Below, piece by piece: positions 3,324-62,363 of a stretch of 64,000 bases of DNA. Source of the DNA: Combretum micranthum (lineage: Eukaryota > Streptophyta > Magnoliopsida > Myrtales > Combretaceae); NCBI GenBank assembly GCA_024138025.1, contig JAMXBD010000965.1, positions 434,001-498,000 of the forward strand. Reading direction: 5' to 3'. Below the pieces are notes generated by a model. It made no database searches. It had not been told where the DNA came from and was given only the letters and a program-made list of their open reading frames with translations. The stretch's first letter is position 1, and every line of letters starts with the position of its first letter. The translations under genes and the position numbers were made by a program.

Positions 3324-3848
3324 ACTTAAACTGTCACGCCCCGTAGGGTATCCTAAACGTAACAGTCCGCCACATACTAAGTAAGACTCTCGAGTTCCCT
3401 AACCGGGGCCTTCGGAGTCTTAAGTAGATGTAAAGCGTTCCCTTACGACAATAGAATACTTCAACAAATGGAGTTTAACAGTTTAACAAGGCATTCATTA
3501 GCCATAGATAATAAATCAAAACGCATAAATCTTTAAGGTTTACAAAATCTAAGGGGCATTCCCCCGCAAAAGAATAACAGTCTATTACAGTCATCCAGAG
3601 TCCTTAGTTTCCAATGGAAGTCTATACAAAAGAAATGAATCAAACTTCTATGGGAAACTCCTATCTCCGGTACCTGCGCTGTGGCTTGCCTTGGCCTAAG
3701 CCATATAAACTCATGCTGCAAAAGATAAACACTATCGGGGCGTAAGCTAACTAGCTTAGTGAGTAATACTTCCATAACGCAATTAGATACAATCATTCAA
3801 CAAGTGATTATTCAAGCAAGTGTATGCACCATACAAATGAAATCACAA

Positions 3849-3898
3849 ACATATGACCAACCGGAAATCATATGTGGATGGACTTGCGCCCTCCATCC
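3849..3898 (-). other. Double hairpin module, LTR A
   Basis: Two abutting inverted repeats. First: ACATATGA (3849-3856) with TCATATGT (3868-3875), perfect 8 bp around an 11-base loop which reads TTTCCGGTTGG on the element strand. Second: GGATGGA (3876-3882) with TCCATCC (3892-3898), perfect 7 bp around GGGCGCAAG on the element strand. The same pair occurs with other stem sequences in the LTRs S, I, E, K and F. Confidence 0.75.
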
Positions 3899-3965
3899 CG
3901 GGTTAGCAGATTAACGAATCCTGCGGTACGACGCCGTTTAAGCTCACGGTCAACTGATTAAAAGC

Positions 3966-4055
3966 TCGTTTTATGGATCACGATTAACCTCACATTCGTT
4001 TTATGGATCACGATTAACCTCACATTCGTTTTATGGGTCACGAAAAACCAACCAA
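3966..4055. repeat. Three tandem 30-bp units, LTR A
   Basis: Units starting at 3966, 3996 and 4026, each carrying TCGTTTTATGGATCACG or a one-base variant. They lie 70-180 bases from the double hairpin, on its element-5' side. Solo LTR S has three units of 31 bp at the same place. Confidence 0.85.
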
Positions 4056-4529
4056 TGCAAATGCTCCAACCCCATTGTGACATGAATGAACTCAGTTATA
4101 GTCGGAGTCGAATAGTCATTAATTCGATTCTTTTAGTGACCAACAAGTATACGCAGACATTCTTCATATGATTCTAATAAACAATCAATATCTTAACACC
4201 CGGTTTCGATATGCTTAAGTTCCATTTCACATATCAACAATTCACAACACAAATAATTCCCACATACCCCATCATGCTTGTACAATTTCTTTTATCTTTG
4301 CCTACATCACTAGTGCCACTACATTACATTCACAAGCATTAATTGAGAGTGGAAGTAACTCACTCGGCCATGGGTCACCAAACTCCTTAATAGTAATAAT
4401 CGGGTGGTAGAGAGTCGTCCTGCTCGGAATCACCTACCAATCAAGAATAATCCCTATGAGATTCTCACCATGTAATTAAATCAAACTATACATCTAGACT
4501 AGTTGAATTCGGATTTCTCGCTATATTTG

Positions 4530-4580
4530 GAAGTTCCGACTTAAAACGGCCATAACTTGGTCATTTTAACTCGGAATTTC
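4530..4580. other. Conserved 51-bp imperfect palindrome, LTR A
   Basis: Outer arms GAAGTTCC and GGAATTTC, inner arms TTAAAACG and CATTTTAA, loop around GCCATAACTTGGT. Only a few pairs mismatch. The block is the most sequence-conserved part shared by LTRs A, S, B, C, D, E, I and K. Confidence 0.75.
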
Positions 4581-5888
4581 GCAAACTTTATATCGATCTT
4601 CATCTACTTCGAAAGATCTATCTAATTCAAGTATTAAATCCAAGTTTTGAAAATAATAGGGTCACGGAACAGTGGGATCAGTTCTGTCCCGCAATTGATC
4701 CATCTTTGAAAATGTGCTTTGCTTTTGATAAGAAATGTTCCTAGTTAGTGATTCATGCATGAATGATTTAGGAATGAACTACTAATGTGTATGCCATGTA
4801 ATGAACTCAACTTGTGCATGGTCATGATGATTTTTGTAGTAATAAACTTTTAGGAACTCCTAAGTGTTGGGGAAAGTTTCATAAAGGCTAATTCTAAGAA
4901 GTTATTCTCCCACATTATACTCCTTAGGGTTTCTTTGGTTTTTAATCTTGTAATCTACTTATTATTTAACTAAAATAGGTTCTCAAAGTCTATAATAGTC
5001 ATGGCCTCCATTCATGCACAAAAATTCACATTTTCATTTGGTAAACATGTTTTCAAATAAGCTAGTTATAAAAATCCGAATTTTCCAAATTTTCTTTTCT
5101 TACATTTTTCTTAAGGGAAATCTAGTCTAATGCATTAAAAATTGGGGCTTCAATGTATACATTATCTAAGGACTTCATTTAGCTTATAAAAACATTCATT
5201 TTAGACTTAAATACTAAGTGTTTATTTAGGCATCACACAAAGTTACGAATTTGACACATAAAGTCAACACTTTCCACTTCTAACTTCACCTCTTGTTTTC
5301 TTATTTTTATTATGCCTAACTCATCTAAACTCATGAAAATAATTCCTTCAACATGTCTATTACACATACCCTTCATTTTTCTTATGAAATATAAGTTTAA
5401 AAATGATTTTGGAGGTCTTTAGGGTAGGGTTTCCATTTCATCCGAATTTTCAACTTTCCATATATAACAAAGTCTTTCCTTTTTCAATGGTCTTGCCTTC
5501 TACATGTCAAGATATACTATCTATCATCACTATATATGAACAAGACTACATTTTTGTGGTCATCAATGCATGAAAATGAAAATAGCTCTATGATCATACA
5601 TGTAAATGACAATGTGGCTAGCTAAACTTTAGATCTACTAAGTATGATGCATAAATCATGGATCTCATGACATGAATAACAATATATATGCAAGATCACT
5701 ACTTTACATGCATGAACAAGGTGAGATCTTAACATAAGCTCATCTAAACACTAGATCCATGTCTTGTGATGGCTTGATATTCTTGTTTATGTGTTTTCAT
5801 GTCCCTAGCATGAGCTCATTGGGATTAAATGAGAAAACACACAAGACATAGCTTTGCCATTACAAGGATTGGAAGGAACAAAGCTTAA

Positions 5889-5902
5889 ATACACATACCA
5901 AT
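5889..5902 (-). promoter_or_regulatory. Splice-donor-like site, LTR A
   Basis: Element strand ATTG/GTATGT, with GT at 5898-5897, about 155 bases downstream of the TATA-like TATATATA at 6054-6061. LTRs S, C, D, E and I have a donor-like AG/GT or TG/GT at the equivalent place. Inferred function. Confidence 0.4.
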
Positions 5903-6746
5903 AGAGTCTTGAAGTGAAAAAGAGAAGAAGCAAAGTTGGAAAGTGAGGATGGGGAGAGGAAGAAGCTCACGGCACAAAAGGGAAAAAGAAGAGAGTTTTT
6001 CTCTTTTTCAAAAGTTCAAATGAGAAGAAAATGAGAGAGAGAGAGAAATTTAGTATATATACTAAGGGAATTAGGGTTTAGTTAATAAAAATGAAGTAAA
6101 AATAATACAATTGAGGGGAAATAAGAGGGAGGGGCGCCGGCCACTTCATGCATGGAGTGTGTGTGTGTTTAAAATTTGATTTTTTTGTAATTTAGTAAAT
6201 GAAAATGTAATAAATGTAATAATTATTAAAGAGACAAATTTTCTTGGAAAAGAAAATTGAAATGAGTAGTTGTAAGGATGTAAGAATAGGGTATGGGTAG
6301 TGTGTAGTGTAGGTTGTACTTGTGAATAGTAGACAAGACATCTACTTTACCGGTTGTTCCAAAAACACGGGAAAAGCTATAACTGTAACCTTTATAGCTC
6401 GGAAAATTATGAAATTGATATTTTTGGAATCCTTATAAAATTACGGTTCTAATGAATATTCCGGAATATTTTTCTGAATCCGTGGCCGGGGCACGCTTTT
6501 CCGTAATTGGGCTCGGGAAGGCCCGGAATTGAAAAATTCCCGAATTTAAAACTTTCAAAGGTTTGAAATGTACTTTGGAACAACAATTCAAATTCATTCA
6601 CTCCAATTTATTTATTTTACTATGAAACCGAAGGAAAGCCGGATTTAGGGTTCCTAGGCTCTATTCACTAACTCAATCTGATCGGGTTAGGGTTTCGTCT
6701 CCAACTCCTGGGGTTTTCTAGCTACTGAGAATTCCCGGGGTTTACA

Positions 6747-8899: not shown

Positions 8900-9414
8900 T
8901 GTCACGCCCCGTAGGGTATTCTATACGTAACAGCCCGCCACATACTAAATAAGACTCTTGAGTTCCCTACCCGAGCCCTTCGGGAGTCTTAAGTAGATGT
9001 AAAGCATTCCTTTACGACAATAGAATACTTCAACAAATGGAGTTAAACAATTTAATGGCATTCATTAGCCATAGATAATAAATCAAAACGCATAAATTAT
9101 CGTTTACAAAATCTAAGGGCATTCTCCCGCAAAATAATAACAAGTCCATTACAGTCATCCAGAGTCCTTAGTTCCAATGGAAGTCTATACAAAAACAAAT
9201 GGATTAAACTTCTACGGGAAACTCCTATCTCCGGTACCTGTGATGTGGCTTGCCTCGGCCTAAGCCATATAAACTCGTGCTGCAATAGATAAAAACTATG
9301 GGGGCGTAAGCTAACTAGCTTAGTGAGTAATAACTTCCATAACACAATTAAAATACAATCATTCAGCAAGTGATATTCAAGCGAGTGTATGCATCATACA
9401 AATGTGATCAACAA

Positions 9415-9463
9415 ACATATGACCAACCGGAAATCATAGTGGATGGACTTGCGCCCTCCATCC
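9415..9463 (-). other. Double hairpin module, LTR S
   Basis: Second hairpin intact: GGATGGA (9441-9447) with TCCATCC (9457-9463) around the nine-base loop. First hairpin: ACATATGA (9415-9422) with a damaged partner TCATAGT, one base lost compared with LTR A. Confidence 0.7.
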
Positions 9464-9531
9464 TGGGTTAGCAGATTAATGAATCCTGTGGTACGACGCC
9501 GTTTAAGCTCACGGTCAACTAACAATATTTT

Positions 9532-9622
9532 GTTTTATGGATCACGATTAACCAACGAATTCGTTTTATGGATCACGATTAACCAACATATTCATTTTAT
9601 GGATCACGAAAAACCAACCAAT
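9532..9622. repeat. Three tandem 31-bp units, LTR S
   Basis: Units starting at 9532, 9563 and 9594, each with TTTTATGGATCACGA. Same position as the three 30-bp units of LTR A, but with a one-base longer period. Confidence 0.8.
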
Positions 9623-10099
9623 GCAAATGCTCCAACCCCATCGTGATATGAATGAATCCAATTTACAATTGAAGTCGAATATACATTAGCTCAATTCTTT
9701 TAGGTGACCAATAAGTATTCGCAGACATTCACCATAGGATACTAGCTAATCAGTCAATAGCTTAACACCCGGTTTCGATATTCCTTAAGTTCCATTTCAC
9801 ATATCAACAGTAGACAACATATATAATTTCCCATATACCCCATCATGCATATACAATTTCTTTTTATCTTTGCCTATGCCGCTAGTGCCACTACATTACA
9901 ATCATTCTAAATTGAGAGTGGAAGTAAAACTCACTCGGCCATTGATGCCAATCTTCCTAGTAGTAGTAGTCGGGAGGTAGAGTGTCGTCCTGCTCGGGAT
10001 CACCTACCAAGCAAGAATAATCCTAATGAGACTCTCATTATGTAACTAAATTAAGCTATACATCTAAACTAAATGGATTCGGATTTCTCGCTATTTGCG

Positions 10100-10150
10100 G
10101 AAGTTCCGACTTAAAACGGCCATAACTTGGTCATTTTAACTCGGAATTTC
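10100..10150. other. Conserved 51-bp imperfect palindrome, LTR S
   Basis: Same arms as in LTR A: GAAGTTCC with GGAATTTC and TTAAAACG with CATTTTAA. Confidence 0.75.
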
Positions 10151-11464
10151 GCAAATTTATATCGATCTCTATCTACTTCGAAAGATCTACCTATTTTCTA
10201 GTATTATTTCCAAGTTTTGAAAATAGTAAGGTCACGGAACAGTGGGATCAGATCGTTCCGCAAATGTTCCAAATCTCAAAATTTTGTTTTGCTTTTGATA
10301 AGAAATGTTCCTAGTGGATGATTCATGCATGAATGATATGAAAATGAATTACTAATATGAATTCCATGTGATGAACTTAATATATGCATGGTCATAATAA
10401 TTTTTGTGATAATAAACTCTTATGAACTCTTAAGTGTTGGAAAACTCCCATAAAGATTATTTCTAAGAAGCTTTTTTTCCACATTATACTCCTTAGGATT
10501 TCCTTGACTTTTAATCTTGTAATCCACTTATTATTTAACTAAAAATAAGTTCTCAAAGTCTATATTAATCATGGCATCATTCATGCATAAAATTCCCATT
10601 TTCATTTGGTAAACATGTCTTTGAACAAGCTTTTTGTAAAAATCCGAATTTTCTAAATTTCATTTCTTGCATTTTTCTTAAGGGAAAACTTGTCTAATGC
10701 ATTAAAATTTGAAGCTCCAATATATATTATCTAAGGACTTCATTTAGCTTATAAAACATCCACTTTAGACTTAACTACCAAGTGTTCTTGTAGGCATGAA
10801 CCTAAGTTACGAATTTTAACTATTGATCAACATACCAATATTTTTCATTCTAACTCCATTACTTGTTTTACATTCCTATTATGCCTAAACTCATCCAAGC
10901 TTATAAAAATCATTCTTTTGAGATATCTATCACATATACCCTTCATTTTTCTTGTGAAATATGAGTTCAAAAGAGATTTTGGTGGTCTTTAAAGTAGGGT
11001 TTCCATTTCATCCGAATTTTCAACATTTCATATTTGACAAAGTCTTTCCCTTTCCAATGTTCTTGCTTCCTATATGCAAAGATCCACTATCTAACACCTC
11101 TATACACGATCAAGATTACACTTTTATGATCATCAATGCATGGAGATAAAAATAGCTCTATGATCATACATGTACATGAAGTTGTGGATGTCTAAACCTT
11201 AGATCTACTAAATATAATGCATGAATCATGGATCTCATGGCATGAACAACAATATATATGCATGATCTCTACTTTACGTGCATGAACAAGTGGATATTCC
11301 AAACAAAAACTCATTCAAAGGCTAGATCCACTTCTTGAGATGGCTTGAGATTCTTGTAGTAGTGTTTTCATGTCCCTTGCTCATGCTCATTGGGATTTTG
11401 ATGAGAAAACACACAAGAATGATCTTGCCATAACAAGATTTAGGATGAACAAAGCCTAAAATCA

Positions 11465-11473
11465 ACCTACCAA
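11465..11473 (-). promoter_or_regulatory. Splice-donor-like site, LTR S
   Basis: Element strand ATTG/GTAGGT with GT at 11470-11469, about 153 bases after the TATA-like box, matching the site in LTR A. Confidence 0.4.
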
Positions 11474-12310
11474 TGGAGTCTTGAAGTGGAAAAGAGAAGA
11501 AGCAAGTTGAAGTTGTGAGGGGAGAGGAGGGGAGTTCACGGCAAAGGAGAAAAGAGAGGGTTTTTTTTTGCCTCTTTTACAAAATTTGAAACAGAAGAAT
11601 GAGGAGAGGAGAGAAAAATATGTATATATATGAAGTAATTTAGGGTTTAACTAATTAAATTGAAGTAAAAATAATTGTTTTGAGGGGGAAACAAAGGGAG
11701 GGGGGGCGCCGGCCACACTTCTTGTGTGTGTGGTGTGCTTTTAAAATTTGATATTTGTAATTTAGTAAATTAAATGTAATAAATGCGATAATTATTTCAG
11801 AGACAAAATTTCTTGGGAAAAAAAAATTGAAATGAGTAGTTGTAAGGATGTAAGAATAGGGTATGGGTAGTGTGTAGTGTAGGTTGTACTTGTGAATAGT
11901 AGACAAGACCTCTACGTTACCGGTTGTTCTGAAAACACGGGAAAGCTATAACTGTAATTTTAATAGTCAGAAAATACGAAAAATTGATATTTTTGGAATC
12001 CTTATAAAATTATGGTTCTAATGAATATTCCGGAACTTTTTCTGAATCCGTGTTCGGGCACGCTTTTCCGTAATTGAGCTCGGGAAGGCCCGGAATTGAA
12101 AAATTCCCGAATTTAAAAACTTTCAAAGGTTTAGAATGTAATTTAAACATAATTCAACTTCATTTACTTCATAATATTAATTTATTATAAAAACCGAAGA
12201 AAGCCGGATTTAGGGTTCCTAGGCTTCACTCACTAGACTCAAACTAGACCGATTGGGTTTCGCTTCCAACTCCCGAGGTTTCTTGACTACTGAGTATACC
12301 GGGGTATACC

Positions 12311-15275: not shown

Positions 15276-15853
15276 ACTTAAACTGTCACGCCCCAAAGGA
15301 TATCCTAAACGTGGCAGTCCGCTGTATATATTATTAAAGCTAATGAATGACAATCCGTAGTCATACAGGAGCTTCGATATCATATGTAAGGCATGCCTCC
15401 AAGATAGTAGGAGACTCACAGGGGTATTACGTTTAAATAGATAGTAAAAGCAATCATGAACTTAAATAAATAAACATAAGATCTTCATTTGATAACAAGT
15501 TTGTACATCATCTTAGGGGCATTCCCCCGCCTTGAAGTCTTTGTTCAACTATACTAATAACAAAATAAACATAACTACCACATAAGTCTACTATAGTGAT
15601 TTTGCCTAAAAGTCTACGTTCAAAACTAAAAATACATAAACTTCCTCCAAAAACTCCTAATAGCATAAGCTCATACCTGGCACACGGAGCTCCTCGGGGC
15701 CAACCATAGATAATCATGCTGTAATAGAAAACTATAAGGGTATAAGCAAATCTAGTTTAGTGAGATAATTCCTAACTATATAACATTTCCATATGACAAC
15801 CAAGTTATTTAATTCAGGCACATGTAATGCACCAATCACATGAACAACCAAAT

Positions 15854-15904
15854 ACACAAGATTAACCGGAAATCAAGTGTAGCATGGATTTGACACCCTC
15901 CATG
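15854..15904 (-). other. Double hairpin module, LTR B
   Basis: CATGGA (15883-15888) with TCCATG (15899-15904), 6 bp, loop GGGTGTCAAA on the element strand. The partner hairpin ACACAAGA (15854-15861) with TCAAGTGT (15873-15880) has two central mismatches; its loop reads TTTCCGGTTAA on the element strand. Confidence 0.65.
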
Positions 15905-15958
15905 ACAAGGGTTGGGTGGTTACAGGCCCATACGACCATCAATATTTGCAGATTTGCA

Positions 15959-17899: not shown

Positions 17900-17952
17900 G
17901 CAAATTTGCAAATATTGATGGTCGTATGGGCCTGTAACCACCCAACCCTTGT

Positions 17953-18002
17953 CATGGAGGGCGTCAAATCCATGTTGCACTTGATTTTTGGTTAATCTTG
18001 TG
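17953..18002 (+). other. Double hairpin module, 5' LTR of C
   Basis: CATGGA (17953-17958) with TCCATG (17969-17974) around GGGCGTCAAA. Then CACTTGAT (17978-17985) with AATCTTGTG (17994-18002), imperfect, with two central mismatches. Confidence 0.65.
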
Positions 18003-18581
18003 TATTTGGTTGTTCATGTGATTGGTGTATTACATATGTTTGAATTAAATAACTTGGTTGTCTTATGGAAATGTTATATAGTTAGGAATTATCTCACTAA
18101 GCTAGATTTGCTTATACCCTTATAGTTTTTTATTACAGTATGATTATCTATGGTTGGCCCCGAGGAGCCTAGTGTGCCAGGTATGAGCTTATGCTACTAG
18201 GAATTTTTGGAGGAAGTCTATGTATTTTTAGTTTTGAATGTAGACTTCTAGGAAAAATCTCTATAGTAGATTTATGTGGTAGTTATGTTTATTTTGTTAT
18301 TAGTATAGTCGAACAAGGACTTTAAGGCGGGGGAATGCCCCTAAGATGATGTACGAACTTGTTATTAAATGAAGATCTTATGTTTATTTATTTAAGTTCA
18401 TGCTTGCCTTTGCTATCTATTTAAACGTGATACCCCTGTGAGTCTCCTACTATATTGGAAGCACGCCTTGCATATGATATCGAAGCTCCTGCGTGACGAC
18501 GGATTGTCATTCATTAGCTTTAATATTATATGCGGTGGACTGCTACGTTTAGGATACCTTCTGGGGCGTGACAATTTAAGT

Positions 18582-23389: not shown

Positions 23390-24636
23390 ACAGGGCAAAG
23401 CACGGAAGTGGAGATTGCCAACCTTGTCGTAGAACCCACCTTAGTAGAAAGAATCAAGGAGGCCCAACGATATGACGAGGCGATTCTGAGAATTAAGAAA
23501 GAAGTGGAGGAAGGAAGGTACACCGATTTTGCCATAGATGAGGATGAAGTGTGAGGATGAAAGGCAGCTATGTGTCTGGATGATGAGGACATAAGAAAGG
23601 AAATCATGGAAGAAGCACATCACTCCGGATACACCATGCATCCAGGAGGAACAAAGATGTACCAAGATCTGAAGAGCCACTATTGGTGGAACGGCATGAA
23701 GAGAGACGTAGACTTGTGTTGAAATGTCCCACATGCCAACAAGTAAAAGTGGAGCACCAAAGACCTGGTGGACTCTTGAAACCCCTGCCAATACCCGAGT
23801 GGAAATGGGACCAAATCACAATGGATTTTGTGTGTGGATTACCAAGGACGTCGGCTGGATATGATGCAATTTGGGTCATAGTGGATTGATTGACGAAGAC
23901 GGCACATTTCCTTCCAATGAACATGACGTACTCTATGGACAAGTTGGCAAGAATGTACATAAGAGAAATAGTACGCTTGCATGGAGTACCCGCTGGAATA
24001 GTCTCCGACCGAGACCCAAGGTTTGTATCTAAATTTTGGATGAGTTTGCAGAAATGTATGGGAACTAAGCTGCATTTCAGTACGGCCTATCACCCTCAAA
24101 CGGATGGTCAATCGGAGCGGATGATACAAATGTTGGAAGATATGCTATGAGCCTGCGTAATAGAGTTTAAAGGTAGTTGGGACACACATTTATCTTTGGT
24201 AGAATTTGCCTCCAATAACAGTGACCATTCCACGATCCAGATGCCACCCTATGAAGCGTTGTATGGAAGAAGATGTTGATCACCTTTGTTTTGGGATGAT
24301 GTAGAAAAGTTGAGCATCAGACTTGACTTGGTACAAGATGCGGCCGACAAGGTGAGGATCATCCAACAAAAGATGAAGGAGGCACAAGATAGGCAAAAGA
24401 GTTGGGCGGATATGAAAAGACGTACACTTGAGTTTGAAGTTGGAGACCATGTGTACTTGAAATTGAACCCCATCAAGAGTATCTGCTGAGTTCGAGCGCA
24501 AGGAAAGTTGATCCCACGATATGTTGGACCTTTTGAAGTGCTTGAAAGAGTAAGAGATCTTGCTTACCGTCTGGCACTCCCTCCTAGCCTATCTGGAATT
24601 CACAATGTACTCCATGTGTCAGTTCTATGAAAACAT
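23390..24636 (+). pseudogene. Element C integrase with DDE core and GPF motif
   Basis: Inserts the DNA copy into the chromosome. Zinc-binding region [11 protein letters not shown] with CPTCQQ after a stop; catalytic aspartates in [10 protein letters not shown] (about 23823) and VSDRDPRF (24007-24009); glutamate in TDGQSERM (24115-24117), 35 residues after the second aspartate as in the family. A GPFEVLERV segment follows near 24530. Stops at CGA codons changed to TGA (for example 23887-23889 and 24148-24150) and frameshifts near 23553 and 24286 break it. Confidence 0.92.
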
Positions 24637-24882
24637 GTGTCCGACCCGACCAGGATTGCAGAGTTGGAACCAGTTCAGTTAAAAGAAAATCTCACATACG
24701 AGGAACACCCAGTTCGAATCTTAGATCATAAGGTACAGAAGCTTCAAAACAAGGAGATCAAGTATGTGAAGGTCCTATGGAGAAACCACTCACACAAGGA
24801 AGCAACCTGGGAGGCAGAAAGTGACATACGCCAGAAGTACTCGAGTCTGTTCAAGGAATTAGGTATGAACTTCAAGTTTTGA
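24637..24882 (+). pseudogene. Element C chromodomain
   Basis: The end of Pol: PVRILDHKVQKLQNKEIKYV, KVLWRNHSHKEATWE and YSSLFKELG, the pattern of the chromodomain at the C-terminus of plant chromoviruses, which is thought to direct insertion to heterochromatin. This places A, B and C in the chromovirus branch; long LTRs point to the Del/Tekay group. The frame is open for 81 codons but cut from the integrase by a TGA just upstream. Confidence 0.85.
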
Positions 24883-27397: not shown

Positions 27398-27453
27398 GGC
27401 ACATCTGCAAATTTTTGATGGTCGTATGTGGGCCTGTAACCACCCAACCTTGT

Positions 27454-27500
27454 CATGGAGGGCGTCAAATCCATGTTGCATTTGATTTCTTAATCTTGTG
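27454..27500 (+). other. Double hairpin module, 3' LTR of C
   Basis: CATGGA (27454-27459) with TCCATG (27470-27475) around GGGCGTCAAA; then CATTTGAT (27479-27486) with AATCTTGTG (27492-27500), imperfect. Confidence 0.65.
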
Positions 27501-28893
27501 TATTTGGTTGTTCATGTGTGATTGTGCATTACATATGTTTGAATTAAATAACTTGGTTATCTTAGAGAAATGTTATATAGTTAGGAATTATCTCACTAAG
27601 CTAGATTTGCTTATACCCATATAGTTTTTTATTACAATATGATTATCTATGGTTGGCCCCGAGAGCCCCAATGTGCCAGGTTTGAGCTTATGCTATATTA
27701 GGAGTTTTGGAGGAAGTCTATGTATTTTTAGTTTTGAACGAGACTTCTAGGAAAAATCTCTATAGTAGACTTATGTGGTAGTTATGTTTATTTTGTTATT
27801 GGTATAGTCAAACAGGGACTTTATGGCGGGGGAATGCCCCTAAGATGATGTACGAACTTGTTATTAAATGAAGATATTATGTTTATTTATTTAAGTTCAT
27901 GCTTGCTTTTGCTATCTATTTAAACGTAATACCTCTGTGAGTCTCTTACTATCCTGGAAGCACGTCTTGCATATGATATCGAAGTTCCTGCGTAACGATG
28001 GATTGTCATTCATTAGCTTTAATATTATATGCGGCGGACTGCTACATTTAGGATACCCTTTGGGGCGTGACACTGGTAATCCCGCATTCTCAAACCCGAG
28101 AAAACGAAATTAAGTTAATTGCTTAAAATAGTTCGTAATAATATAAGGTAACATAAAAATATTAGATTCGCAAATTTCGAGTATCTTCGGACTCAAACGG
28201 GATCAGTTCTCGAAAAGTGTGTCAAGGAGCTCGGAACATTAAAAATATTTCATTAACACCAAAAGACTCATAATTAAACAGGGATTTCAAAAATATCAGT
28301 TTTAGAATTATTTGGTAGCTAAAAATTACAGATATCGCATTATTACCGTATTTTTATATACTACCGTACTTTAATTGTCTAGTTTACTATTTATATTACT
28401 TTTCTACTATTCATTACTATTCCTTTATCTCTATTTTTTCTTACTACCTATTCTTACACCTACATACCTATTTCTTACAATTTTCTTTTCCCATAAAAGT
28501 TCTACACCACACATTACTAAACTTCTCTTACACTTTTCTTTTAAAATTAATTTTTTATCAAATTTTCCCCTGTTTCATGGAGTTGCCGTCCACCAATCTC
28601 TCTCTCTCTCTTCATCTCCATTTATTTTCTTTTTCAATTAAATTAATTACATCTAATTTTCACTTCAAAATTCTATTAATACCCCCTTCCTCCTTCATCC
28701 TTTCACACAATTCATTTTACTACCAAAACTCTCTCAAAATCTCTCCACAAATCCTCTCTTCAAGAATTCTCTCTACCAAAACTCCCTTAAACCAATTCCT
28801 CAAAAAAATAATTCCTTATACATAAACTATCTACCACATATCACTACTCACATAATACCCCTTTCATCTACCATCTTCATATCACATAAACAC

Positions 28894-30561: not shown

Positions 30562-31422
30562 ATTCTATACGATTTTGACGAACATAATGAGATAGAATTA
30601 GAAATTTTAAGTAGAATTTCTACGAAATACTCATCCCGGGTATTTCTTTTGTCTAGGTAACAAAAGGTACGAGATTACCCTTCCCGAAGATTACTACAAC
30701 TAAGAAGACCGCGAAATAAAAGAGTGAGTTATTCTTCTTAATTTTGTTACCTTGCTTGTGCTTGTAAAGTAGTAGCATTAGTATACTAAGAGAAGATAAA
30801 AATGGATATATATTTGGGGATTTTGGGATTATGAGTATATATGTGATTCTATGTTTATGCGTGAAATGAGAATGAAGAATATCACTGTCACACCCCGAAG
30901 GGTACCATAAACATGGCAGTCCACCACATATAATATCAAGACTTAAGAATGACTACCTTAGTCATGCGAAAGCCTTAGATTACAAGTAAGGCGTCTAGTA
31001 CGGTAATAAGACGCTTTTGGGAACCATAGTTTAAGCAAGTAAAGATGAACAAACAAGAATCTAGAAATAAAATATATTATATCATTAATAACCTAAGATC
31101 TATTACATGATTTATTAGGGGAATATCCCTGCTAATTCAAGGATCATAATAGTCTTTACAACATTCAAAAACTACATTAAAGATTTCAAAGGAATTTTAA
31201 TCTAACTTTTCAAGCTGATTTCCTCCAAAAGCTTCAATGGAAAACTACATGGATATGGGGAGGCCCCGGGCACAAAATAGGTGTTCCTGAGAATACAAAT
31301 ATCTATAGGGGTGTAAGCTTATGGGCTTAGTGAGTAAATCCCAAAATTCATACTCAAAGTAAATTATTAACCAAGTTTATTATTCAAACATATGGAAAGT
31401 AACAACCACATGAGCATACAAG

Positions 31423-31469
31423 ACATATGACTTTCCGGGAATCATATGTAATGAATTACGCCCTTCATT
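31423..31469 (-). other. Double hairpin module, LTR E
   Basis: ACATATGA (31423-31430) with TCATATGT (31442-31449), perfect 8 bp, loop TTCCCGGAAAG on the element strand; directly followed by AATGAA (31450-31455) with TTCATT (31464-31469), loop GGGCGTAA on the element strand. Both bases of several pairs differ from those in A. Confidence 0.78.
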
Positions 31470-31530
31470 CGAGGTTGGGTATTCAGGCCAATTACAGCCA
31501 TAAATTTTAAAACACTTTTATAGTTCTTCA

Positions 31531-31790: not shown

Positions 31791-32240
31791 TGTCACGCCC
31801 CGAGGGTACCCTAGTAATAGTAAATAAGTTACACTTGCACACCATTACTAGATTACCTTCAGAGAATGGCACGTTTTCAAAACAACATGATCTTTTAAGT
31901 TGCTTGATAAGAAATAACAAATATATATGAGAAATGACTAGTGAATAAACATTACATTACTATACAAACCATATAATTCTTTTGTAGTACACAACTAAAT
32001 AATCTAATCTAATTGTACATAACCATCACACTACAATAGATCTGTAGACTTCTAGCTTCAAAGCTCTTACCGGAGCCATGTTCCTGGATGTAACTAACCA
32101 GGGTCATAAAGTGAACCTGAAAAGACTGTAGGAGTATGAGCGAAACCACAGCTCAGTGAATAACCAAACATACCATACATCACACAAGTCATTAACAAAT
32201 CATATGCAATGCAAGCACTTAACCATATGCACAAATACAA

Positions 32241-32290
32241 GTTTGGATGATCTAGAATCCAAACAGGAAAAAGATTTACGCCCTCTTTTT
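32241..32290 (-). other. Double hairpin module, LTR F (different stems)
   Basis: GTTTGGAT (32241-32248) with ATCCAAAC (32257-32264), perfect 8 bp around GATCTAGA; then AAAAAGA (32268-32274) with TCTTTTT (32284-32290), perfect 7 bp, loop GGGCGTAAA on the element strand. The stems share no sequence with those of A or E but pair fully, and the second loop is the conserved one. Confidence 0.78.
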
Positions 32291-33240
32291 AATGGGTTGA
32301 AGAACCAAATCTTAATGACCCACCTGCCTAGGAGAGACTAAGTACACAGGAGCATCAGCAATTTCTCATTTTTAAGTTATCACTCTTAATATAGTTGATT
32401 AAACTGACCATCTCCTGCAACTTCCTTAGAAACTCCCTAAGTATTAATCATTTCAAAGCGATTCTACGGACGATGTTCTTCGGTGCCTTTTAGTTCCTCA
32501 TAGGACCGCCAAAGAGAACCTTGGAAGACTCACACATTAGATCAACTAAGCAAAAATAGAGATCCGAAATATTAATATGTAGCAGGCTGTCACAACCATA
32601 TATGCAATAATGCAATTTGTGCAATGCATGTTCACATTATTTTGTGAAGTCAAAAGTCTAATCAATTTGAGGTGCCATACATTACACACAATCATCATCA
32701 TACTACTGCACAACATCAATCATTGCATTACCGCTTGTATAAAATATTTTAACAATCATACAATCAGATCATATCAAACTTTCAACAAACATTCATTGAT
32801 TATCTTGCATTACGTATTTGACTATTTACAATCACAACCAGTACAATATGATTGAATTACTCACCTGCTCATACTGACTCAGTCGTAGTAATCCTGTAGA
32901 TCCTCTAATGAGTTAAAGTCACCTATTTAAGATAAAGTATTCATTAATACAAATTAACTAAATTCCTATATGTGATTAGTGTCCTAGACTCGATATTAAT
33001 ACTTAATATCGTCGTGTTTCTCCTATTTTATCTCACATAATTGTTTGGTTATTTTTAGAAGTCACATTACTCAAGAAATCAGTTTATTTCAATTTTCATT
33101 CTTGCCTATTTTATCTAGTTAAAACAAATATTAAACTAATATTACTTTAATTAATACTAAATATTTTCTTAATTCTAGGGTTGCAAAAGTTATTAGATAT
33201 TAATCTAGTTATTCTAATCACTGGTAAATATTATATTGTT

Positions 33241-36944: not shown

Positions 36945-37645
36945 GGAAAATATGGGAGATAAATTGTGTTAATTAAATAAATGAAAAATAAAACAAATTG
37001 AGGCATGGGAGAGGGGTGGCCGGCAAGAATCTAAGGGTAATGGGGAGAGAAAATTTTATTTTTTTGTTATTTTGTTAATTAAAAGTAAGAAATGAGAGAT
37101 GTGAAGTTGTATTGGAAATGAAAATGTGTAAGAAATAGGTGTATGGGTTGTAAGAGTAGGTTGTAAGAAAAAGGAGAGATAGATGAATAGTGTAGAATAG
37201 TAGTAAATAGTGTAATGTAAAGTAGATATGACAATTTAAATACCGATAGTAAGAAAATACGCGTATAAATGCAATATCTAATATTCTTAGCTATCGAAAA
37301 AATATGAAATTGATATTTTTGAAAATATTATATTTTTACGAGTCTAACGGTATATTCGGAATATTTTTACTATTCCGAGCCTCGAGACACGTTTTTCAAG
37401 AACTGTGTCCGATCGGGTTCAAGGGACACTCGAATTTCGTAAAACTGATATTTTTATAAAACCTATAGTTATTCCAAACTATTATAGCTAATTATTCCAA
37501 ATTCGTTTTCTAGGGCTAAAGAAAACGGGAATGCCGGATCTAGAATCTAGGTTTTGTACTAGCCTTTTGTTGACCTCTAGGGTTTCGGTTGACTTTTAAT
37601 TCTAAGATCAAACTTAAAATTAACCGAAAATTTTAGGGGTTTACA

Positions 37646-38595
37646 ATTGCAACTTCAAACTGCTTGTTTAAATAATTTTGTATGACTGCTTATTAATTGC
37701 TAAATTAATTGATCACCCCCAAATAAACCTTAATAAGGTTTGGCTTAAGAAAAATGAAACACTCACGCATAGCATCCATCGACTCACATCTTTTTCGAAA
37801 AGCTCTTACTCCTACGCGTAGAGTTGGATTGGCTGTGATCGTGTGGTTACACGAGCCATATTCTTTCCTGGAGAATTTAAATCACTCGGGGAAAGCAACT
37901 CTAGGTTCAGAGCCGAGCCAACCGAATGCTGTGGGTGAGGACTTGGGGACTAGTAGTAGAAGATCGAGGATCTTCAACCCCGATTCCCTAACTTTTGACA
38001 TGGAGGGGTAAATCCATTCTATATATGGTTTCCGAATTACTATATATATTTTTGTATTCATGTGATTGTTGCATTGCATGCATAGCATATGTGTGAAAGT
38101 TTAAATGAACTTGTTTGAAAATATGATGCGAATGAAAAGGAATATCTCACTAAGCTAGTTATAGCTTATACCCTATAGACTTTGTTGAAACAGGTATACC
38201 CATGGCTTAAATTGAGGATCATAACATTAAGGAAGTCATGGAATGATGTTAAGCTTCTATGAAGGAAATGGAATCATAAGATGAAGTAATTTTTGTAAGG
38301 TTCTTTATATGTAATGACTTATATGATTAGTGATGTATATTTATTTGAAGACAATAGAGGGATATGCCCCTAAGAATTGTAATTTAATATGTTTATGTTT
38401 TATGATAAGTATTCTCTTTGCCTTGTTACTTATTTATTATCAATATAAATTGCGGTACTACGATGCATTCCCTTGGTTGTGATGTATGCCTTATATATGA
38501 CATGGAAGCCTTTCCGTGACTGAGGTAGTCATTCCTAGGCTTTAGTATTGTGTACGGTGGACTGCCACGTTTAAGGTACCCCTCGAGGCGTGACA
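37646..38595 (+). mobile_element. Element D 5' LTR, last part
   Basis: Continues LTR D after solo LTR E and ends GAGGCGTGACA at 38595, directly before the primer site. Over 37750-37990 it differs from the other LTRs and lacks the GGC-GCC units. Confidence 0.85.
38000..38048 (+). other. Double hairpin module, LTR D (weaker)
   Basis: ATGGA (38000-38004) with TCCAT (38013-38017) around GGGGTAAA; then TATATAT (38020-38026) with ATATATA (38042-38048), loop containing TTTCCG. The second stem is low complexity and weaker evidence on its own. Confidence 0.5.
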
Positions 38596-39832: not shown

Positions 39833-41448
39833 TGTTGGTCCCAGATTTGCAAACAAGAGGGGAGGGGTGAATTGTTTGCTTTTTAAAAAATTTTGAAAAC
39901 ACTTAACAAATTAAAATCTTCGGAAACTTCTTCTGACAAATAATTTAGAGAATCTGATTATAACTTAGATAAATATTGTTGCTTTGAAGAACTTAATAAG
40001 AAAAAGATTTGAACAACAATATAAACAATTATAACCAATAAAAATTGCAGAGTAATAAAGTGCAGAAAATTAAATGAGCCCAGAAATTTATAAAGGTTCC
40101 TCCTTGCGAGTACGTCCTCTCTTCCAGCTCCACTGCTGGGGATCCGGTTTCCAACCGGTTGTTCCACTAATCCAATTAAACAAAAAGAGATTACAAACAC
40201 CAATCAATCTTGTTCTATCTCACAAGCCTATATCTATTGGCTAAACACAGACTACAAGATTATTTGTAATCCTCTCAACAACTCTCAACATACTCAATAC
40301 AAGAGTAGAGAATCTTCAATCAAGAGTTACAATAGACACTCTAAGTATTTGAGCACAAGAACACAGAAGAAAGTAAATTTTGGAGTTTTGCACAAAATGT
40401 CTGACTAGTATTTGACTAGTGTCTGACAGAAAGTCTGATGAAGTAGAAATATAAAATTGACAGTAAAATTTCAGCTCATGTAATTCTGGGTTTTTTTAAT
40501 CTCGTCTCTTCTGTTCTTGTTTTTCCTGAAACATTATAATATATATATATATAGAATATCCTGGTCTTTATCCTTCAGTTCAACGGGCTTTTAACAACTT
40601 TATCTTTATCCATCGAAACAGAATTTGCCGTTGGAAGAGGAGAGAGATAGAAAATATCTCGTATTTTGAAAACCAAAACTGGAGAGAGATCCGCATAAGA
40701 CGCTTTGCTGGAATATTTTCTTGATATTGTGGAATAAAAACTAACAACAAGATGAGTTGTTGCTGTAACTAAAAGGATATTTCACAATTTAAAAAGATCC
40801 ATATCCTTACGGTTTTGAACAGATTTGAAATTTATTCAAATCTTCCCATAAAATCCGAGATTTAGATATATACCTTATCCGGAGTATTTTTTAACAACAA
40901 TCTTCACTTGATACACTTCACGTGATAGAAGATAGAAGAAATCACTATTCATCTGAAACAGCAAGCTATTTGAGAAGATGAACAGTAAAAAATTAAACAT
41001 CTTGAAAATTTCAAAATCCTCATGAGACTTAAATCTTCCCTTGTGAAACATATTAGATATACTTTCTAATATCTAATAAAAGAATTAGGCCTTCAATTAA
41101 TTCCTTGTGTGAAAAATCAATCCAATAAATCCGATTTAGAAAACCTGATCTGAACGTGATAGTGCTTTATACTGTCTGATGAAGAACCAGAAAACGTGAC
41201 AGTTCTTTATATTGTCTGATGAAGAACCAGAAAATCTAACTTCGTCTGAGATATTAATATTCACCCTTGACCTTCGTCTGATATATTAATATTTCACCCT
41301 TGAATTTTCTTAGGGCTTGAGGTTTAAAAGATCAGAACCATATTGTCTGACTTACTGTCTGATAAGCTGCACACTGCATACTAAATAAATATTATTATAT
41401 TTTATTCTTCTTTAGTTATCATCAAAATAAAATAAAGAGAACCTAACA
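39833..41448 (-). mobile_element. Element G 3' LTR, copia (Sirevirus-like), 1616 bp
   Basis: Starts TGTTGGTCCC and ends CCTAACA on the plus strand. It pairs with 48947-50542. Nine GTCTGA hexamers occur on the plus strand, two pairs exactly 12 bases apart (40421 and 40433; 41345 and 41357). A 40-bp unit with CTGTCTGATGAAGAACCAG is tandemly doubled near 41157-41236. TATA repeats at 40540-40553. Confidence 0.95.
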
Positions 41449-41462
41449 TTCTCCCCCTTTTT
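41449..41462 (-). promoter_or_regulatory. Polypurine tract 1, element G
   Basis: Element strand AAAAAGGGGGAGAA directly next to the 3' LTR: the expected plus-strand primer. Confidence 0.9.
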
Positions 41463-48946: not shown

Positions 48947-50542
48947 TGTTGGTCCCAGATATGCAAACAAGAGGGGAGGGGTGAATTGTTTGCTTTTAAA
49001 AAATTTTGAAAACACTTAACAAATTAAAATCTTTGGAAACTTCTTTTAACAAATAATTTAGAGAATCAGATTATAACTTAGATAAATATTGTTGCTTTGT
49101 AGAACTTAATAAGAAAAAGATTTGAACAACAATATAAACAATTATAACCAATAAAAATTGCAGAGTAATAAAGTGCAGAAAATTAAATGAGCCCAGAAAT
49201 TTATAGAGGTTCCTCCTTGCGAGTACGTCCTCTCTTCCAGCTCCACTGCTGGGGATCCGGTTTCCAACCGGTCGATCCACTAATCCAATTAATCAAAAAG
49301 AGATTACAAACACCAATCGAATCTTGTTCTGTCTCACAAGCCTATATCTATTGGCTAAACACAGACTACAAGATTATTTGTAATCCTCTCAACAACTCTC
49401 AACACACTCAATACAAGAGTAGAGAATCTTCAATCAAGAGTTACAATAGACACTCTAATATTTGAGCACAAGAACACAGAAGAAAGTAAGTTTTGGAGTT
49501 TTGCACAAAATGTCTGACTAGTATTTGACTAGTGTCTGACAGAAAGTCTGATGAAGTAGAAATAAATTGAAGTAAAATTTCAGCTCGTGTAATTCTGGGT
49601 TTTTTAATCTCGTCTCTTCTGTTCTTTTTTTCCTGAAACATTATACATATATATATAATATCCTGGTCTTTCCTTCAGTTCACGGACTTCAACAACTTCA
49701 TCTTATCCATCAAAACAAATTTGCCGTTGGAAGAGGAGAGAGATAGAAAATATCTCGTATTTTGAAAACCAAATCTGGAGAGAGATCCGCATAAGACGCT
49801 TTGCTGAATATTTTCCTGATATTGTGGAATAAAATCTAACAAAAGATGAGTTGTTGCTGTAACTAAAAGGATATCACAATTTAAAAAGATCCATATCCTT
49901 ACGGTTTTGAACAGATTTGAAATTTATTCAAATCTTCCACAAAATCCGAGATTTAGATATATACCTTATCCGGAGTATTTTTAACAACAATCTTCAGCTT
50001 GATACACTTCACGTGATAAAAGAAGATAGAAGAAATCACTATTCATCTGAAACAGCAAGCTATTTTGAAGAAGATGAACAGTAAAAAATTAAACATCTTG
50101 AAAATTCAAAATCCTCATGAGACTTAAATCTTCCTGTGAAACATATTAGATATACTTTCTAATATCTAATAAAAGAATTAGGCCTTCAATTAATTCCTTG
50201 TGCGAAAAATCAATCCAATAAATCCGATTTAGAAAACCTGATCTGAACGTGACAGTTCTTTATACTGTCTGATGAAGAACCAGAAAACGTGACAGTTCTT
50301 TATACTGTCTGATGAAGAACCAGAAAATCTAACCTTCGTCTGAGATATTAATATTTCACCTTGACCTTCGTCTGATATATTAATATTTCACCCTTGAATT
50401 TTCTTAGGGCTTGAGGTTTAAAAGATCAGAACCACATTGTCTAACTTACTGTCTGATAAGCTGCACACTGCATACTAAATAAATATTATTATATTTTATT
50501 CTTCTTTAGTTATCATCAAAATAAAATAAAGAGAACCTAACA
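48947..50542 (-). mobile_element. Element G 5' LTR, 1596 bp
   Basis: Same ends as the other copy (TGTTGG and CCTAACA). Differences from the 3' LTR are scattered substitutions and short indels, so the insertion is not very recent. GTCTGA hexamers recur (49534 and 49546, 12 apart; 50439 variant and 50451, 12 apart). Confidence 0.95.
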
Positions 50543-50673
50543 TCCCTAAAGGAGATGACTCATCTAAGAAGGAATGTGGAACTTCGTCTAAAGGTCCTAC
50601 CACAATATCTCACCACACAGGACAAGGAAAAGCTCCTGATGATGAAGACGAGGGATCAGTAAGTGAATCTTAA
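50543..50673 (+). pseudogene. Element D gag tail after the G insertion
   Basis: Begins with the right duplication TCCCT, then continues the D frame: KGDDSSKKECGTSSK, GKAPDDEDEGSVSES and a TAA at 50671-50673. A hydrophilic, acidic C-terminus. I infer the join from the duplicated site and matching frame. Confidence 0.65.
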
Positions 50674-52897: not shown

Positions 52898-53414
52898 TGT
52901 CACGTCCCGAAGGGTACCCTAAATGTGGCAGTCCGCCGTACACAATATTAAAGCCTAAGAATGACCACCTCGGTCATGCGAAGGCCTCCATACTATGTAC
53001 AAGGCGTCTAACACATAGAGGAGACACCTCGGAATGATACATTTCATGTTGATATAACTTGAGTAACAATGGAAAGGAAATTCAATTCACTATTCTTCAA
53101 AATACAACTCATTAAACTTCAATACAAATCATCAAAAGATTCTATTACATAGAACTATTACAAGGCAAATAATAAAACCTAGCTAATAACTTCAAACATT
53201 CTTATGTCTTGCCGGAATCTGAAGTCAATCTCGACTTCAACCATCTCAGTCCCCACTTAGCATTCTTGAGATACCCTGTTCATTTAAACAACTATTGGGA
53301 TATAAGCTACACTAGCTTAGTGAGTGAAAACTTCTAGGATTACATTTATAACACATCATACAATCAAGTGATTAGTCAGACAAGTGATATGCATCAGACA
53401 CGTGAATTCAACAA

Positions 53415-53464
53415 ACATATGACCTGCCGGAAATCATATGTGGATGGACTTGCGCCCTCCATCC
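53415..53464 (-). other. Double hairpin module, LTR I
   Basis: ACATATGA (53415-53422) with TCATATGT (53434-53441), loop TTTCCGGCAGG on the element strand; directly followed by GGATGGA (53442-53448) with TCCATCC (53458-53464), loop GGGCGCAAG on the element strand. Confidence 0.75.
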
Positions 53465-54038
53465 CGGCTTAGCAGATTAACGAATCCTGTGGTACGACCA
53501 AGACCGTTTCAGCTTACGGACAACTATAAACTATAAAATCGTTTAAGGTACAACGATAAACCAACAAATGCTAATGCTCCATCCCCATCGTGTATGAATG
53601 AGTTCAATTTCATCTTCAATTCCGAATAATCTATTATACCAATTCTTTTAAGTGATCAGTCAATAATCGCAGACATCAATTCTAATTCATCTATACAAGC
53701 AATAGTTAATCACTTCGGCTTCGATATTCTTACATTCCATTTCTCATATCAACAACAAGTATACATAGTTCCCATTCGTCCCCATCATGCATATCCATTT
53801 TATCTTTACTAAATATCTAGTGTAACTATTATTACAATCACATACAATAAATGAAATCGGAAGTAATACTCACTCGGCCATTGGATCACCGGCCTCTTAG
53901 TACAAGTAATCCGGTGGTAGGGAATCGTCGACTCCGGGATCGCCTAAAAAGGAAGAAATACTCTAATAAGTATTTCATCACTTAACTAATCTAAACTATC
54001 TTATACAACCTATTAAATTCGCAATTTTAGTCCAAAGC

Positions 54039-61695: not shown

Positions 61696-62248
61696 TGTCA
61701 TGTCTTGTAGGGTACCCTAAACGTAGCAGCCCACCACATATAATATCAAGACTCAAAAATGACCACCTTAGTCATGCGAAAATCTTTGTATTACATGTAA
61801 GGCGTATAGCACGGTAATAGAAGACACTTTTGGAAAGTATGGTCTATACAAGTAAAAATGAATATACAAAAATCCAAAAATAAAATAGATCATAATATTA
61901 ATAAACAAATGTCATTACATAAACCTTAGGGGCATACCCCTGCTAAAACCCAGAGATCAAAGATAACTGATAGTATATACAATACTTAAATTCTACATCA
62001 AAGATTTCAAAGGAATTATAATCTGATTCTTCAAGTAGATTTCCTTCAAAAGCTCCAAAAGAAAACTTACGCAGATATGAGGAGACTTTGGGTACAAAAA
62101 CAAGTGTTCTTGAGAATGCAAATATCTATAGGGGCGTAAGCTTACGAGCTTAGTGAGTAAATCCCAAATATATTCATACTTGAAACGAAATATCAACCAA
62201 GTTTATTAATCCAGCAAATGAGATGCAACAAACATGTGTGCAAATAAG

Positions 62249-62298
62249 ACATATGACTTTCCAGGAATCATATGTTGAATGAATTACGCCCTTCATTC
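62249..62298 (-). other. Double hairpin module, LTR K
   Basis: ACATATGA (62249-62256) with TCATATGT (62268-62275); one base later GAATGAA (62277-62283) with TTCATTC (62292-62298), loop GGGCGTAA on the element strand. K has one more base pair than E. Confidence 0.78.
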
Positions 62299-62363
62299 TG
62301 GGTTAGGTATTCCGGCCCATTATGGCCACTACTTCTTTTAAAAACATTTTTATAGCTCTTACC

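Follow-up and report, generated by a model that had tools for sequence, protein, structure and literature searches.

Twin hairpins in the inferred R region of chromovirus LTRs from Combretum micranthum

Two small hairpins stand side by side in long terminal repeat (LTR) after LTR of a 64-kb stretch of the Combretum micranthum genome (the window). The question they raise is whether an RNA structure has been preserved there and, if so, what it could do for the elements that carry it. Plant Ty3/gypsy elements account for a large share of many genomes; to our knowledge, little has been established about their cis-acting RNA structure.

The hairpin pair and the LTRs that carry it

The window is AT-rich and packed with nested LTR retrotransposons. 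Gag and pol pieces matched PF03732, PF19259 (Ty3-type gag), PF00078 (RVT_1) and RNase H in Pfam, and a chromodomain closes the pol region of a related element; two open reading frame pieces at the integrase place before this chromodomain (23587-23889 and 23890-24150) had no Pfam match. Because of the RVT_1, RNase H, Ty3-type gag and chromodomain matches, the LTR-bearing elements are, judged by their domains, chromoviruses (Ty3/gypsy). Their lineage is presumably Tekay/Del, the label used in an earlier note on this DNA.

24631-24882, plus strand: chromodomain (PF00385, E 2.2e-9) at the end of pol of a related element, a chromovirus mark
3332-6745, minus strand: LTR carrying hairpin copy A2; its 3′ end reads ..GGGGCGTGACA and is followed by TTGGTATCAGAGC, the primer-binding site (PBS)

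The LTR at 3332-6745 is taken as the 5′ LTR of its element, because the PBS, which we take to be of the initiator-tRNA type, adjoins its 3′ end and because a same-strand LTR outside the window (L031:3114-6525), probably its partner, is 98.6% identical to it. The LTR at 8900-12309 shares only 84.6% identity with it and belongs to a different insertion. In well-kept copies the LTR 3′ end is TACCCTTCGGGGCGTGACA or near it, and in part of these copies a PBS comes next, again presumably of the initiator-tRNA type. A UUCG-type hairpin is possible at some LTR 3′ ends, where the sequence is ACCC-TTCG-GGG.. (copy I, 30886-30904, minus strand).

Read on the element strand, the module opens with the single strand C(T/A)AACCC, followed by a stem, a GGGCGYAA-type loop and a stem (hairpin 1), mostly 0-3 spacer bases, and then a stem, a TTYCYGG-type loop and a stem (hairpin 2). 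In copy A2 (3849-3898, minus strand), hairpin 1 is composed of stem GGATGGA, loop GGGCGCAAG and stem TCCATCC, and hairpin 2, which abuts it with no spacer, of stem ACATATGA, loop TTTCCGGTTGG and stem TCATATGT. A covariance model (R1) seeded with four window copies (A2, A1, S and D) returned 24 matches in the window at E ≤ 10; nine copies, the four seeds included, were found at E ≤ 1.5e-7. The diverged copy F scored E = 0.02, just below a match at 37610-37664 (E = 0.015) that we judged false by eye and that is absent from the list of a second model, R2, at E ≤ 0.1. R2 was built without F or its sister L030:6463 and still finds both, at E 0.0017 and 0.0092. The ten window copies are as follows.

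3847-3902, minus strand: twin hairpins, copy A2 (stems 3849-3898), spacer 0; 87.8 bits, R1 seed
9413-9467, minus strand: twin hairpins, copy A1; 79.7 bits, R1 seed
15852-15910, minus strand: twin hairpins, copy S; 62 bits, R1 seed
17947-18005, plus strand: twin hairpins, copy T; R1 E 1e-10
27448-27503, plus strand: twin hairpins, copy U, loop 2 three bases shorter; R1 E 4.5e-8
31421-31474, minus strand: twin hairpins, copy I, spacer 0; R1 E 7.7e-10
32239-32295, minus strand: twin hairpins, copy F, stem letters largely different, spacer 3; E 0.02 (R1), 0.0017 (R2)
37994-38049, plus strand: twin hairpins, copy E, spacer 2; R1 E 1.5e-7
53413-53468, minus strand: twin hairpins, copy D, spacer 0; R1 seed
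62247-62302, minus strand: twin hairpins, copy K, spacer 1; R1 E 2.5e-10

Ten is also the number of LTR copies that the earlier note had listed. Its spacers of 0 (copies at 3849, 31423 and 53415), 1 (K) and 3 (F) bases hold, and the distance of 480-620 bases that it gave to the LTR 3′ end agrees with the 505-627 bases measured in the ten window copies from the start of the aligned module.

Double hairpins are common in this AT-rich window and single-copy energies are modest; the case for a module rests on comparison. A loose double-hairpin scan gave 378 overlapping solutions on both strands. Folding z-scores of the window copies range from -0.6 to -2.5, and for copy D the structure of lowest energy is not the twin hairpin. 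The element strand folds more stably than the opposite strand in nine of the ten copies, F being the exception. What is beyond chance is the recurrence of the pair at one LTR position with stems that have changed and are complementary all the same.

Two other features of the window were recorded alongside. A copia element with LTRs at 39833-41449 and 48947-50543 (95.7% identical) also has two abutting hairpins in each of them, at 41051-41106 and 50144-50199, which have the top stem score of the window scan; their loops differ from those of the chromovirus module, and the two pairs are probably unrelated. Upstream of the twin hairpins, several copies have short tandem repeats (A2: 3960-4060, minus strand) with units that differ by clade and that look like U3 promoter repeats.

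Genomic copies and compensatory change

A third conserved element, HP3, lies downstream of the pair, and a further small possible hairpin, GGGG-AATG-CCC, follows it in seven of the ten window copies.

3733-3763, minus strand: HP3 of copy A2, CTCACTAAGC..GCTTACGCCCC, a short possible hairpin
3554-3565, 9117-9128, 15517-15528 and 61930-61940, minus strand: GGGG-AATG-CCC possible hairpins in the LTR, 3′ of HP3
18329-18340, 27828-27839 and 38359-38369, plus strand: GGGG-AATG-CCC possible hairpins in the LTR, 3′ of HP3

With two spacer lengths, the exact HP3 motif has at least 17,473 copies in the genome, a count that leaves out F-type copies. Copies of the module were gathered in four ways, all from this one 1.86 Gb genome. 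To the ten window copies found with R1 we added nine copies from eight loci located by a 28-base pattern spanning both loops. Six came from 20 ten-kilobase stretches spread over contigs regardless of content (one of them, in L026, at E 0.047 only), and five from four ten-kilobase stretches beside known copies. The last set comprised 40 loci chosen by HP3 and not by the hairpins, hand-picked, largely for variety of the HP3 loop, from the first 100 entries of each of two search lists. Twin hairpins occur at the expected place and strand in 38 of these 40 loci (E ≤ 4.2e-8), and nearly all copies examined have the pair, as had been proposed. The other two, L038 and L040, are without twin hairpins; L040 keeps the CTAACCC that precedes them. 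One further weak match (L048:810-863, E 7.4e-4) brought the total to 69 copies.

Young copies retain the hairpins, whose absence from young, transcribed copies the earlier note had named as telling against the module: they are present in two same-strand LTR pairs, of 98.7% and 98.6% identity along 3.4-3.5 kb. The copies are both recent and old. Single bases are missing from several, perhaps through errors of assembly. In L003, downstream of position 1487, an A-type LTR start (TGTAAACCCC) about 20 nt after the hairpins marks a nested insertion.

The alignment of the 69 copies (65 distinct rows) leaves out match-free loci, L038 and L040 among them. Standard pairs fill 93.4% of its 936 stem cells, compared with 82.3 ± 0.5% after shuffling. 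Cells changed on both sides number 137 (shuffled, 44.9 ± 9.0; slid structures, at most 9), and 12 of the 15 pairs are changed on both sides, a value that shuffling (8.6 ± 1.3) reached in 3 of 500 runs. Because this alignment was fitted to the structure and the copies are related, we also made a tree-aware null, in which the changes of the 3′ partner were redistributed over the branches of a tree of 68 copies built from the downstream flank. The observed 25 paired-to-paired double changes contrast with 2.6 ± 1.5 under this null (maximum 7 in 500 runs), and the 93.7% pairing with 81.3 ± 2.9%; steps from unpaired to paired show no excess among the 68 copies (20 versus 21.4).

For a cis/trans test, arms were cut at hand-made loop patterns and not taken from a structure-fitted alignment; the duplex energy of two arms of one copy was then set against that of arms drawn from different copies. 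Hairpin 1 arms average -6.8 kcal/mol in cis and -4.6 in trans (p = 0.002 with 9 representatives, 0.009 with 14), and hairpin 2 arms -9.2 and -3.9 kcal/mol (p = 6e-5 and 2e-5, respectively). The covariation that had been suggested as a check is thus found over the whole structure and not at single pairs: a homemade R-scape-like test gave no column pair at E < 0.05 (best 0.89), with stem pairs making up 7 of the top 13 among 1540 column pairs.

Individual copies illustrate the pattern. Copy F has nearly its whole stems replaced (AAAAAGA/TCTTTTT and GTTTGGAT/ATCCAAAC) with loop 1 kept, and the stem 1 letters of its sister L30b differ again from those of F. Stem letters vary widely in F, L30b, L32 and L3, with pairing largely kept. 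The GGG..AA columns of loop 1 are 90-100% one letter and exceed many of the stem columns (43-100%) in uniformity; the loop 2 core hardly differs in this respect from the central part of its stem, and much of stem 2 matches its loop. Across the stems of 30 related rows, G.T wobbles exceed A.C mismatches by 17 to 4, and in 13 representatives by 5 to 1, which favours RNA of the element strand. The structured RNA that the earlier note had suggested gains from both lines, covariation over the whole structure and the excess of G.T over A.C, and it seems, from these sequence comparisons, that the folded RNA of the element strand itself is preserved by compensatory change.

Flanking signals and the inferred R region

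In 51 of 67 copies (shuffled, 0.2 ± 0.5) the hairpins are followed, at a distance of about 39 nt, by an AATAA..CTTG motif that resembles a poly(A) signal; its pattern was written with the sequences already in view. Plain AATAAA follows the hairpins in 25 of 67 (shuffled, 3.2 ± 1.7). Upstream, TATAAA is found in only 16 of 68 copies (shuffled, 3.2 ± 1.6). Fourteen of these copies are, by eye, of the K/I kind, and 15 of the 16 boxes lie at -47 to -54 relative to the aligned module.

3808-3812, minus strand: copy A2, AATAA part of the motif AATAA..CTTG, which resembles a poly(A) signal (motif scan)
62348-62355, minus strand: TATA-like box CTATAAAA upstream of copy K (motif scan)
31516-31523, minus strand: TATA-like box CTATAAAA upstream of copy I (motif scan)

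In plants the usual distance from TATA box to start is about 32 nt, and cleavage usually falls 10-30 nt past the poly(A) signal. Applied here, these spacings would place a putative transcription start about 15-22 nt ahead of the module as aligned, with a putative cleavage site shortly before HP3, which would open U5. R would then span about 125-155 nt with both hairpins inside, and the genomic RNA would carry the module twice, at its 5′ end and near its 3′ end. Because a TATA box lies upstream of the hairpins in some copies and an AATAA-like signal downstream in most, we infer that the pair belongs to the R region and so to both ends of the genomic RNA. A position in the transcribed LTR, from which the earlier note argued, is here deduced from these two signals.

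HP3 may be linked to the twin hairpins by pairing. Its 3′ flank is complementary to loop 1 in copy A2 (8 of 9 bases) and in K (8 of 8), and over 27 copies the mean duplex energy of loop 1 with this flank is -7.97 kcal/mol, compared with -5.12 ± 0.37 for shuffled flanks. Covariation of loop 1 and flank is not established, because in 7 of the 27 copies (D, L4, L6, L13, L23, L32 and T) the energy is no better than the shuffled mean and the cis/trans comparison gives only p = 0.04 to 0.15. The HP3 stem has a both-sided change in the F lineage (F and L30b), with cis versus trans p = 0.06-0.16. In a separate, unscored observation, GGGGCGTGA at several LTR 3′ ends is complementary to the HP3 flank TTACGCCCC.

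Possible roles and comparison with known systems

We consider it fairly probable that the pair is a conserved R-region module with leader-like functions in genomic RNA selection and dimerisation and in R-to-R strand transfer. In the manner of the structured retroviral, Ty1 and Ty3 leaders, loops 1 and 2 would be bound by Gag, or RNA would bind RNA through the CCGG palindrome of loop 2, and such binding would select and dimerise genomic RNA and guide strand transfer. The palindrome is suggestive of a kissing loop; the loop 2 region has CCGG in 42 of the 69 copies, CTAG in 2 and neither in 25, and CTAG could have arisen from CCGG by CpG decay, which blurs this interpretation.

Control of the poly(A) site is unlikely by comparison and still a live rival: the hairpins would modulate use of the AATAA-like signal, which would be passed over in the 5′ LTR and take effect in the 3′ LTR. 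Plant far-upstream elements act where the hairpins lie relative to the signal, caulimovirus poly(A) bypass offers a precedent, and the AATAA..CTTG motif recurs at about +39 in 51 of 67 copies, although it lies outside the hairpins. In many copies loop 1 is complementary to the HP3 3′ flank, which by our reading lies in U5, and this could mark one end. A related proposal, to which we give rather little credence, is that the U5 flank of HP3 (TTAYRCCC) pairs with loop 1 (GGGCGYAA) as a pseudoknot at the 5′ end only, since both RNA ends share the R hairpins and U5 would follow R only at the 5′ end; the U5 end GGGGCGTGACA might be a competitor for that flank. If so, identical R sequences would fold differently at the two ends, the 5′ poly(A) signal would be silenced, and the PBS and dimer loop would be exposed at the 5′ end only.

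Splicing of the leader, the other live rival, seems to us rather unlikely. The candidate 5′ splice site lies in loop 1 (GTAAAT; in clade A, GCAAGT), a YAG past HP3 would serve as the 3′ site, the leader intron between them would be short, and the hairpins would keep part of the RNA unspliced. G(T/C)AA is present in most loop-1 strings, and 57 of 67 copies have a YAG at 38-62 nt past TCACT, a count without shuffled control; by the available text of one report, BARE1 RNA is spliced (PMC3735527). Copies S, T and U nevertheless read GTCAAA, L057 and L059 have no YAG in the stretch examined, and the base before GT is often C. Translational control of a long leader by shunting or internal entry is improbable: some 500-600 nt of LTR would precede the PBS if transcription starts near the module, but the module would then lie near the putative cap and far from gag. 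The disfavoured reading, and a very improbable one, is that the hairpins are DNA-level palindromes, either factor sites or cruciforms. Stem 2 does contain a CATATG palindrome in several clades, yet pairing is largely kept while stem letters vary widely in F, L30b, L32 and L3, and G.T prevails over A.C by 17 to 4.

The covarying module is compact, at about 50 nt, and its element type has at least 17,473 exact HP3 copies in a 1.86 Gb genome. It offers a defined RNA for studying chromovirus packaging, dimerisation and strand transfer, and the twin hairpins would help to find R where LTRs are very long.

No comparable module was found in Rfam or in the literature, the latter mostly without subscription papers. 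The 64-kb window has no Rfam match at gathering score. In five loci searched to E = 1, three matches appeared, none of them a ribozyme: MIR1120 in L045 and L037 (E 0.012 and 0.18), away from the hairpins, and ALIL at L037:519-639 (E 0.83), just downstream of them; being far below gathering score, they are taken as chance. Hammerhead elements, as in retrozyme LTRs, are reportedly known from plant LTR elements and do not account for the module, given these Rfam results. Searching the motif letters in the literature returned no LTR paper by title, and their occurrence in an orchid paper is a marker primer, again taken as chance. The ENE triplex of Evade is likewise a structured RNA of a plant LTR retrotransposon; the text available describes U-rich internal loops in a stem, in the spacer before the downstream LTR (PMC12501189). 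The twin-hairpin stems have no U-rich internal loops, their loops are GGGCGYAA and TTYCYGG, and Rfam gave no window match at gathering score, so we set this identity aside. The LTR profile models of Benachenhou et al. 2013 keep TATA and AATAAA and include stem-loops in long R regions, and conservation of TATA, AATAAA and stem-loops is common to them and the module (PMC3601003). The six Metaviridae clades named in the accessible part of that paper are not plant LTRs; 'Tekay' occurs there 0 times, and no twin hairpin is described in it (PMC3601003). An IMG/VR search for relatives by pol yielded 77 pattern matches, none of them confirmed.

Lentiviral R carries TAR and the poly(A) hairpin near a TATA-driven start and an AATAAA-like signal. 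The module resembles this arrangement in having two adjoining hairpins, in what is probably R, near a putative TATA-driven start and an AATAAA-like signal, but its signal lies about 39 nt past hairpin 2 and not inside a hairpin, as in the lentiviral poly(A) hairpin. Loops and stems are unrelated, host and clade differ, and, unlike for the lentiviral pair, we know of no activator for the plant module. The retroviral dimer initiation site is a short loop palindrome near the RNA 5′ end. Within Ty3/gypsy, the genomic RNA dimerisation site of Ty3 is, by the available text, the palindrome CUGCAG at nt 391-396 (PMC11381356), and the module would, in part of its copies, share with it and with the retroviral site a short loop palindrome in a hairpin near the RNA 5′ end. 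It differs from Ty3, as described there, in that its palindrome is CCGG, is not present in all copies and would lie in R (PMC11381356). As far as can be judged from these likenesses, the module would work like retroviral and Ty3 leader elements.
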